NCBI GenBank assembly: GCA_020431405.1
Contig: JAGQIK010000346.1
Location: forward strand, 1 to 36,230
Length of the DNA stretch: 36,230 nucleotides
Direction: 5' to 3'
From: Myxococcales bacterium
Lineage (GTDB): Bacteria; Myxococcota_A; Polyangia; GCA-2747355
In this document: one piece after another, positions 10,071-17,274 of the stretch
Position numbering within the stretch: position 1 is the stretch's first letter
Layout of the letters: each line of letters begins with the position of its first letter
Notes under the pieces: generated by a model
Databases searched by the model: none
Told to the model about the DNA's origin: nothing
The model's input: only the letters and a program-made list of their open reading frames with translations
Made by a program: the position numbers and the translations under genes

Positions 10071-11657
10071 GTGTCCCAATCGAGGCGGATCCCGTACGCC
10101 AGGTCGTCGAGGCTGGCGCTCGTTGCAGCGCTGTGTCTTGTCGCGCTCGGCAGCCAGGCAGCGTTCGCGCGCGGCAAGGGCCAGCGCAGCCCGCTCTCGC
10201 TGTCCGATCGGGCGCGCGCGCAGCTGTCGCAAACCGCCAAGCGCGAGGCCATCGCCAAGTACGGCGTCAAGGCGATGGCGCTCAAGCGCACCTTCCTCGC
10301 CAAGCACAACACCGACTACAGCGTGGTGATCCCGCGCGGGCGCACGCCCTACGAGATCCGCAACCAGCGCCAGAGCGGGCGCTGCTGGCTGTACGCCTTC
10401 GACAACGTGCTGCAGAGCAAGCTGGCGCTCAAAGGCGTGCGGCCGCGCGACCTGTCGACCTCGTTCATGAACTACCACGCGCTGCGCACGCAGGCGTTCG
10501 CGCTGCTCAAGGAGGCCGCGTCGTCGCGCGCGCTTCCCGACCTCGCGCGCATCGGCGAGCTCGACGAAGGCGGCCACCAGCCTTGGGCGCGCGCCATCGT
10601 GCGCAAGCACGGCATCGTACCCGAGCGCGTGATGCGCTCGACCTACGACGGCAACAACTCGGCGCTGACCATCAACAAGCTGCGGCAGCTGATCGTCGCG
10701 GCCTATCGCGAGATCGGCAAGCAGTCGGCCGACAAGGCCGGCGAGCGCGCGTCGAAGGCGATCGCCAAGAGCTACCAGAAGAAGATCGAGAAGCTGCTCG
10801 ACTCGACCATCGGCAAGCCGCCCAGACAGTTCACCATCGACGGCGTGCGGTACACGCCCAAGACCTATCTGAGCCGCAAGCTCAAGATCTCCGACGCCGA
10901 CCTCGACTACGTCGTGCTGCTGCACGACCCCGAGCGCGGCTTCAACCGCGGCTACGTGCAGGGCGGCGACCTCGGCTTGAAAGACTTCGTCGCCTACAAC
11001 GTCTCGATGGCGACCATGCAGGCGGCGGTGAAGAGCACCATCAAGGGCGGCGAGTCGGTGTGGTTTTCGGCCAACGCGGCGAGCGGCAACCCGCATCGCG
11101 CCGGCGTCTCGAGCGCCGAGCCGCGAGAGGCGCGCGGCGTGCTCGCCATCGGCGCCTTCGACTACGAGCCCTACATCCCGTCGCCGAAGATGAGCAAGCG
11201 CGAGCGGCAGCAGGCGATGATCAACCTCAGCGACCACGCCATGGCGCTGACGGCGTTCGATCCCAAGGCCGGCTCGCGCGGCACGGTGCTCAAGTGGCGC
11301 GTCGACAACAGCTGGGGTCGTCAGAAGGCTGGCAAGGACGGTCACTTCCACATGTACGACGACTACTTCAGACACTACGTCGACTCGGTGGTCGTCCCGC
11401 GCAGCGCGCTGAGCAAGGCGATGCTTACCAAGCTCAACGCCAAGCCCATCGTCGGCCTCGAGCCCGCGGTCAAGCTGGCGAAGAAGCCAGCGGCCAAGTG
11501 GCGCGCGCCCGAGCGGCGCAAGCTCGTGCTGCAGGTGATCGCCGGCGCGCTCAGCGTCGACGAGGCGGCGCACCAGCACGGGCTCAAGGCCAGCACCGTG
11601 CAGCGCTGGCACGACAATGCGCTGCAAGCGATGAACGACGCGCTGCGTAGCGATTAG
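10071..11657 (+). CDS. Exported C1B-type cysteine peptidase (bleomycin hydrolase/PepC-like) with C-terminal HTH-like segment
   Basis: A 528-residue protein from the GTG at 10071, preceded by TTGGAG; this start places a signal peptide (about residues 1-34, ending A-A-F-A-R) at the N-terminus. The papain-like triad is complete for the C1B group: Gln in N-Q-R-Q-S-G-R-C with Cys105, His389 in L-S-D-H-A-M and Asn413 in V-D-N-S-W-G. Bleomycin hydrolase/PepC enzymes are normally cytoplasmic aminopeptidases, so export is unusual. After a Lys/Pro-rich linker, residues about 483-525 look like a transposase-type helix-turn-helix (I-A-G-A-L-S-V-D-E-A-A ... G-L-K-A-S-T-V-Q-R-W). This is odd for an exported enzyme. 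The next gene starts 29 bp downstream. Confidence 0.85.
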   Translation: MSQSRRIPYARSSRLALVAALCLVALGSQAAFARGKGQRSPLSLSDRARAQLSQTAKREAIAKYGVKAMALKRTFLAKHNTDYSVVIPRGRTPYEIRNQRQSGRCWLYAFDNVLQSKLALKGVRPRDLSTSFMNYHALRTQAFALLKEAASSRALPDLARIGELDEGGHQPWARAIVRKHGIVPERVMRSTYDGNNSALTINKLRQLIVAAYREIGKQSADKAGERASKAIAKSYQKKIEKLLDSTIGKPPRQFTIDGVRYTPKTYLSRKLKISDADLDYVVLLHDPERGFNRGYVQGGDLGLKDFVAYNVSMATMQAAVKSTIKGGESVWFSANAASGNPHRAGVSSAEPREARGVLAIGAFDYEPYIPSPKMSKRERQQAMINLSDHAMALTAFDPKAGSRGTVLKWRVDNSWGRQKAGKDGHFHMYDDYFRHYVDSVVVPRSALSKAMLTKLNAKPIVGLEPAVKLAKKPAAKWRAPERRKLVLQVIAGALSVDEAAHQHGLKASTVQRWHDNALQAMNDALRSD

Positions 11658-15604: not shown

Positions 15605-16531
15605 CTACTTGGGCCCGTAGCCGAACCAGGTCAGACACGGGATCTTGGCCTCGACGGTGGCGCCGTCTGCGCTGACCTTGCCGCTGCCGTAGTTGACCCA
15701 CTGGCCCTCGCCGACGAGCGTGCCGTCCTCGAGGATGCAGTCGAGGCCGCCGAGCAGATAGAGCGCCACGTCGCTGTTGGCCGGCAAGTTGGTGCCGTTT
15801 GGAATGCGCGCGGTGAAGCCGCCGTCGAGCAGGTTGCCTTCCGGCGAGAACGCGTAGAGGGCGGAGACCTTGGCGCGCTGCGCGGCGTCGAGAAAGCAGA
15901 CGCCGGGCGCGTCGGGGGCGAGGCGACGGGCGGCGAGGCCAGCGTAGCCGGGCGCGGCGAGGAAGGTGTCCTTGGGGATGACGTCGATCTCGAGGCCGTC
16001 GTCGAAGCGGACCACGCGCGCCTGCGCGACATCGCCTTCCGGCGGTAGCGTCGTCGCCGGCTTGGTGGCAAAGACCGTGAATGGTGACGCGAGCGCGACG
16101 TCGGGCGAGGCGTCCGACGGCAGCGAGACCGGGCAATAGGTGGTGGCGTTGGCGGTCGAGGGCACCAGCGCGCGCATCACCGCCTCGGCAATGCAGCGCG
16201 TGCTCTCGGGCACGTTGATCTCGAACTTGCCCTCTGCGTCTGTGAAGGGCGGATCGAGACACACCAGCGCGGTGTTGGCGAGCCGCAGGCATAGCTGCGG
16301 GCGCGCGTTGGCGATGCCCTTGCCGTTTTCGTCGACGACCGAGCCGGTGACACGCTCGGTGTAGCGCGCCGTGCAAACGGCCGCGTCCGGGCTCGCGTCG
16401 GGCGTCGTCTGTTCGGTGGAGGCGTCACGCGGCGTCGTGTCCGCCGCGCTGTCGGCGGGCGAGCTGCTGTCAGAGCAGCCCACCGTCGCCAGCACGAGCA
16501 GCGCCGCGAACGCGGCTGCGCGCGCGATCAC
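15605..16531 (-). CDS. Lipoprotein with carboxypeptidase-regulatory-like (Ig-like) domain
   Basis: A 308-residue protein from the GTG at 16531. The start overlaps the stop of the upstream redoxin gene as GTGA, indicating translational coupling, and gives a clean signal peptide with lipobox A-T-V-G-C (Cys19). After an Asp/Thr/Pro-rich linker, residues about 58-130 resemble a CarboxypepD_reg-like beta-sandwich (V-T-G-S-V-V-D-E-N-G-K-G-I-A-N-A-R, then F-T-D-A-E-G-K-F-E-I-N-V-P). The C-terminal 170 residues are not recognised. It is the last gene of the minus-strand unit with the DUF4388 protein and the redoxin. The coupling suggests it may work with the redoxin in the envelope; its role is unknown. 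Confidence 0.8.
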   Translation of the reverse strand: MIARAAAFAALLVLATVGCSDSSSPADSAADTTPRDASTEQTTPDASPDAAVCTARYTERVTGSVVDENGKGIANARPQLCLRLANTALVCLDPPFTDAEGKFEINVPESTRCIAEAVMRALVPSTANATTYCPVSLPSDASPDVALASPFTVFATKPATTLPPEGDVAQARVVRFDDGLEIDVIPKDTFLAAPGYAGLAARRLAPDAPGVCFLDAAQRAKVSALYAFSPEGNLLDGGFTARIPNGTNLPANSDVALYLLGGLDCILEDGTLVGEGQWVNYGSGKVSADGATVEAKIPCLTWFGYGPK

Positions 16532-17274
16532 GGCCCGAGCAGGCCGTCGATCACGGGACCGACGGTGGACTCGCCGCCGCCCGCGCCGCCGCCGCCGCCC
16601 TCGAGCTTGAGCTGGATCACGCCGGCGGCGTCGAGCACGAGATCGGCGTCGCGGTTGGCGGGGATCTTGAACGTCGACTGGATCGTGTTGCCCGTCGGGT
16701 CGCGCAACACCGTCATCGGCAGGTTGTACTGCGGGTTGTTTTTGATCTGGTTGCAGTAGGTCGCCGTGGGGATGGCGAAGTTGGAGTCCTGCGTGAGAAT
16801 GAAAAAGGCTTCGAAGTTGTTTCCGTGGGCGTTTTTGTACTTGTTGTAGAAAGCCGCAGCCGACCTGGCGCGGTTGATACAGCTGCCTCACGAGCCGCGG
16901 AAGATGAATATCCAGGCTGCCTTCTTGCCGCACAGGTCGTGGATGTCGTGGTTGTTGCCGGCGCAGTCTTTGAGCGTCAGGTTGGGCAGCTTGTCGCCCT
17001 TGTTGGTGCCGAAGGGGCCCTGCGGCGGGCAGGTGATCGCGATGGCGTCGGCGGTGGTGTCGCCGCTGCCGGTGTCGGGCAGCGGGCCGTCCGGCCGCGG
17101 GCCGTCGGCTGCGGGGCCGTCGACGCTGGTGTCGCCGACGATGGTCTCGGAGCGTTGGAGGTCGGCGATGGCTTCACCGCCGCCGCCGTCGCGCGTCGGC
17201 GATTCGTCGCTGCAGGCCACACCGACCAGCAGCAGCGTCGCCGCGCCGAATACTCGAAGCGATAGGTTTTTCAT
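16528..17274 (-). CDS. Redoxin-fold lipoprotein, probable selenoprotein (in-frame TGA at 16890-16888 read as Sec)
   Basis: Read through one TGA, the frame gives 248 residues. Residues 1-20 are a signal peptide with lipobox G-V-A-C (Cys21). An Asp/Gly/Pro-rich linker runs to about residue 80. A thioredoxin/AhpC-like domain follows (G-D-K-L-P-N-L-T-L-K-D ... K-K-A-A-W-I-F-I-F-R-G-S). Codon 129 is TGA, and the sequence continues in the same frame with G-S-C-I-N-R-A-R-S-A-A-A-F-Y and normal redoxin features (L-P-M-T-V-L-R-D-P-T-G-N, V-L-D-A-A-G-V-I-Q) up to the stop at 16528. The TGA sits exactly where the first Cys of C-x-x-C belongs, giving U129-G-S-C132. A bSECIS-like stem-loop follows directly. 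A nonsense mutation or sequencing error is the alternative. The gene lies 13 bp after the DUF4388 gene and its stop overlaps the next start. Confidence 0.8.
16856..16890 (-). promoter_or_regulatory. Candidate bacterial SECIS stem-loop next to the TGA
   Basis: Downstream of the TGA (16890-16888), GCAGCTG (16886-16880) pairs with CGGCTGC (16862-16856), including one U-G pair. A 5-nt bulge follows, then ACC (16874-16872) pairs with GGT (16865-16863), capped by the 6-nt loop GCGCCA. The loop begins with G, 16 nt after the TGA. A G near the start of a small apical loop at about this distance is what bacterial SECIS elements show. Stems form easily in GC-rich DNA, so this supports rather than proves recoding. 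Confidence 0.6.

Follow-up and report, generated by a model that had tools for sequence, protein, structure and literature searches.

The 36,230-nucleotide stretch of DNA analysed here ('the window') carries, on its minus strand, a gene whose product can be identified with high confidence as a selenoprotein with a U-x-x-C redoxin domain, and which is very probably a lipid-anchored, TlpA/ResA-like thiol oxidoreductase. The gene begins at an ATG (position 17274) and occupies a single frame, 17274-16531, that encodes 248 residues and ends at a TGA stop codon (16530-16528). Its sole interruption is a second TGA at 16890-16888 (codon 129), which falls at the first position of a U-G-S-C active site (in the context F-R-G-S-U-G-S-C) and is most readily read as selenocysteine (Sec129). 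A first-pass annotation had described two open segments (17274-16891 and 16887-16528) split by this one TGA and had proposed that they form one selenoprotein gene; both the description and the selenoprotein interpretation are borne out by the analyses below, in which the Sec machinery proves to be present, homologues have Cys or TGA at the corresponding site, and paralogues in the same genome have TGA at the matching position.

The continuity of the frame is visible at several levels. Codon bias is equal on the two sides of the TGA (third-position GC of 0.89 before and 0.91 after), and matches to the Pfam families Redoxin (PF08534; E 3.2e-7, 30.7 bits against a gathering cut-off of 26.6) and AhpC-TSA (PF00578; E 1.3e-6, 28.8 bits against a cut-off of 26) both cross it. 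When the two halves were compared separately with a profile made solely from Cys-containing relatives, the segment before the TGA matched positions 6-98 (E 7.6e-19) and the segment after it, searched alone, matched positions 103-193 (E 2.7e-8), and thus the two halves follow directly on one another within a single protein. Matches of this kind, to Pfam across the TGA and to the profile on either side of it, would not be expected of an accidental reading frame in GC-rich sequence. The possibility that the UGA is a true stop, giving a truncated lipoprotein of 128 residues, draws on the presence of a start codon and signal peptide in the first segment, but such a product would lack the catalytic residues and the greater part of the thioredoxin fold, and the half that follows the TGA is conserved. 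Decoding of the UGA as another amino acid is countered by the identification of the genome's TCA-anticodon tRNA as tRNA-Sec, and by the use of TGA as the stop codon of the redoxin gene itself, which indicates that UGA is not generally reassigned. Termination and alternative decoding are accordingly regarded, taken together, as most improbable.

Comparison with relatives places the TGA exactly at a catalytic position, as had been claimed at the outset. In an alignment of 37 sequences, the column that contains codon 129 holds either Cys or another in-frame TGA in all 36 other proteins, and the second Cys of the motif and the lipobox Cys are likewise invariant. The genome (an assembly of 11.2 Mb in 733 contigs, 95.7% complete) also encodes everything that was sought for selenocysteine insertion: a tRNA-Sec with anticodon TCA, together with SelA (553 bits), SelB (353 bits) and SelD (359 bits), all above their curated cut-offs and all, like the tRNA-Sec, located on other contigs of this fragmented assembly. 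SelD itself contains an in-frame TGA (C-A-G-U-A-S-K).

A search of the redoxin-type genes in the same genome recovered 12 further members of the superfamily in which the only internal TGA occupies the position of the active-site Cys (GSUSSC, VGUKTC, HWUPYC, TPTUSR, FSUPYA, PGUTIE, PGUTVE, RWUPFC, KTUTEC, GWUGFC, YGULFC and EWUPPC). With the window gene and SelD, this brings the genome to at least 14 candidate selenoproteins, several of the redoxins being lipoproteins. The 13 redoxin-type genes are spread over eleven contigs and have their TGA at the same functional position, a pattern for which a single sequencing error cannot account. Two different candidate selenoredoxin genes (EWUPPC and KTUTEC; L088 and L120) adjoin one another on contig C650 (14391-15443).

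The same assembly does contain a TGA of another kind. On contig C705 (L156, about 10472-11155), a lipoprotein redoxin has a TGA in place of a Trp codon directly before an intact CGPC motif (S-A-G-[TGA]-C-G-P-C), where Sec would not be expected; it represents an error, decay or something odd, and its position shows that spurious TGAs do occur in these data. This case and the draft state of the assembly lend some weight to the view that the window gene is a pseudogene, or that its TGA stands for a TGC or TGT misread during sequencing or assembly, as does the behaviour of the hairpin that follows the codon. A bacterial bSECIS model specifies a loop of 3-9 nt with a G among its first two nucleotides, a stem of 4-16 bp, a spacing of 16-37 nt and an energy of -7.5 kcal/mol or lower (PMC13188914). 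In the window's candidate (16854-16873, minus strand; CCGCGCC-AGGUC-GGC(U)GCGG, -11.3 kcal/mol) the loop, AGGUC, lies 21 nt beyond the UGA. Its size, the placement of its G, the spacing and the energy agree with the model, but a one-base bulge divides the stem into 3 + 4 pairs and breaks the contiguous 4-bp stem; against synonymous recoding this hairpin is not significant alone (z -0.77, p 0.31). Folding energy over the full 42 nt after the UGA (z -0.67 for the window gene) was uninformative in this GC-rich DNA, and a position-constrained hairpin test was therefore adopted. Across the genome's UGAs, 11 of 14 are followed by hairpins that satisfy a strict version of the model, with four contiguous pairs, where synonymous recoding leads one to expect 3.1 (P=4e-7), and the best hairpins after UGAs are more stable than those in 31 Cys redoxins (-10.1 versus -4.6 kcal/mol; Mann-Whitney p=3e-7). 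This enrichment, the frame and codon bias that continue unbroken past the TGA, the distribution of the 13 redoxin genes and the complete Sec machinery all argue against decay or error, which we consider very improbable, and for a selenoprotein.

The selenoprotein is predicted to consist of three parts. A lipoprotein signal peptide (17274-17212, minus strand) ends in V-G-V-A-C, with Cys21, the residue predicted to be lipidated, lying behind a hydrophobic stretch; the Gly at -3 is slightly atypical. An Asp/Pro/Gly-rich tether follows (17211-17034), modelled by AlphaFold2 with low confidence (pLDDT about 50-60) and apparently disordered, and leads into a thioredoxin-fold redoxin domain (17033-16531; about residues 81-248), for which confidence is mostly above 90. 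The closest solved folds to the modelled domain are ResA and DsbE/TlpA-like proteins (TM-score normalised to target about 0.8 for ResA/TlpA-like entries), with Etrx2, which ranks lower, and some peroxiredoxins also among the matches. A search of the PDB by sequence gave no match, the ResA model NF002854 scored 13.4 bits against an NCBIfam cut-off of 170 bits, and no NCBIfam model claims the protein. The UGSC-containing selenoprotein family NF041046 was considered and rejected, as it gave no match at E<=1 despite the UGSC motif in the redoxin.

Envelope thiol-disulfide reduction or repair is the most likely function, with Sec129 as the nucleophile and Cys132 as the resolving residue, and a disulfide-reductase role is judged probable. 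A selenoprotein that acts mainly as a peroxidase, in the manner of peroxiredoxins, would fit the AhpC-TSA and Redoxin matches and the peroxiredoxins found among the fold matches. The peroxidatic T-x-x-C/U motif is, however, absent from F-R-G-S-U-G-S-C, whereas peroxiredoxin paralogues in the same genome do carry it in T-x-x-U form (TPTU, TPGU), and the U-x-x-C motif and best fold matches point to ResA/TlpA/DsbE-like proteins; a peroxidase is thus an unlikely, though still credible, assignment. Even as a disulfide reductase, the protein could differ in activity from ResA and TlpA, because no Trp precedes its active site and because the cis-Pro site, where most relatives have Pro, is aligned with an Asp.

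In the mechanism that we propose, the ribosome would read UGA codon 129 as Sec with the help of tRNA-Sec, SelB and the hairpin shortly downstream. The product would then be exported and lipidated at Cys21, and the flexible Asp-rich tether would hold it on the envelope and set the thioredoxin-fold domain, with its Sec129-x-x-Cys132 pair, outside the cytoplasm. There the Sec selenolate would attack an oxidised substrate such as a disulfide, and the resulting bond would be resolved by Cys132, as in TlpA/ResA-type oxidoreductases, after which a DsbD/CcdA-type partner is assumed to re-reduce the enzyme; substrate and electron donor alike are presumed.

The arrangement of the neighbouring genes suggests that three of them share one transcript. 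Upstream, a gene encoding DUF4388 and TPR domains (19288-17288, minus strand) ends 13 bases before the redoxin ATG. Downstream, as the first-pass annotation had noted, the redoxin stop overlaps the next gene, a lipoprotein gene with weak similarity to CarboxypepD_reg (16531-15605, minus strand), whose GTG start (16531-16529) shares two bases with the stop and which may be translationally coupled. A protein similar to the downstream lipoprotein was found in just 4 of 96 genomes, this one included, and it was thus not identified as a conserved partner. Elsewhere in the window, 24280-23042 (minus strand) encodes a predicted protein whose repeats resemble the collagen triple helix (Pfam Collagen).

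The combination of a lipoprotein signal with an Asp-rich tether, which had at first seemed unfamiliar, turns out to be the usual layout of a large, class-wide lipoprotein family that joins such a tether to a C-x-x-C domain, mostly with Cys at the active site. The family profile matches 317 of the 318 genomes of the class, the weaker matches probably being general thioredoxin-like proteins. Among the best-scoring matches listed, ten genomes have TGA forms. TGA flags in G310 and G074 were discarded as ordinary stops at the gene end. SelA was found in nine of the ten (in one as a partial match only), compared with 137 of the 308 others (p=0.007), and the tenth genome, G147, has a tRNA-Sec. Related genomes share their TGA forms: GWUGTC in G147 and G148 (L157/L158), and GWUTRC in G149 and G151 (L159/L161). 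In a tree of 45 domains, the window protein groups with three Cys forms (L019, L045 and L058) and two Sec forms from G251 with support of 99/92. At least nine Sec/Cys changes are needed, four of them forced by well-supported branches, and the tree gives no direction for them; by this reconstruction, Sec and Cys forms appear to have interchanged repeatedly in the family. The resulting close Cys/Sec pairs are natural experiments on the choice of Sec.

Selenoproteins with a U-x-x-C redoxin domain are themselves established in bacteria, as had been stated at the start: families on record include a Redoxin family (PF08534, UxxC) and a Prx-like thiol:disulfide oxidoreductase (PF00578, UxxC/UxxU) (PMC13188914). 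The window redoxin shares their Pfam superfamily, their motif and their predicted thiol-disulfide chemistry, but that source mentions neither lipoproteins nor any Myxococc- or Polyangi- taxon. It resembles the extracytoplasmic thioredoxins TlpA, ResA and DsbE in predicted fold, membrane anchoring and two-residue active site, but differs in having Sec for Cys, a lipid anchor with a long Asp-rich tether, and only about 15% identity. Etrx2, a surface lipoprotein thioredoxin of Streptococcus pneumoniae (4hqz, 2yp6), also presents a lipid-anchored extracytoplasmic thioredoxin-fold domain, but is a Cys enzyme of a Gram-positive bacterium with about 20% identity. Within the myxobacterial lineage, Anaeromyxobacter dehalogenans has a selenoproteome of 11 genes that includes three Prx and two thioredoxins (PMC1794560); it too uses Sec-containing redoxins, but probably belongs to a different class, and no lipoprotein redoxin is named there.

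Among the papers searched, nothing relevant emerged on selenocysteine or selenoproteins in Myxococcota or other myxobacteria, and the lipoprotein branch and redoxin-heavy selenoproteome of this lineage look new. More tentatively, and with rather more doubt than conviction, the selenoproteome of this class of large-genome bacteria (probably Polyangia) may be dominated by redoxins, with much of it extracytoplasmic, and may so far have gone unreported. In it, a lineage-wide family of tethered lipoprotein oxidoreductases would have gone back and forth between Sec and Cys on many occasions, and the subclade of the window protein, having lost the Trp ahead of the active site and the cis-Pro that are usual in thioredoxins, may have distinct chemistry. 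The number of candidates, and the presence of lipoproteins among them, would carry Sec chemistry beyond the cytoplasm in bacteria seldom discussed for selenium use. Gene callers that treat TGA solely as a stop truncate such genes and may consequently give a false picture of envelope redox in these organisms.

The Sec trait is patchily spread in the class: of its 318 genomes, 135 have selA above the cut-off. Among Sec forms, the two G251 lipoprotein redoxins, encoded in tandem on contig C639 (L162), are the closest to the window protein, and one genome, G063, apparently has two tRNA-Sec genes (C30 and C421) and two selA genes (C30 and C441).
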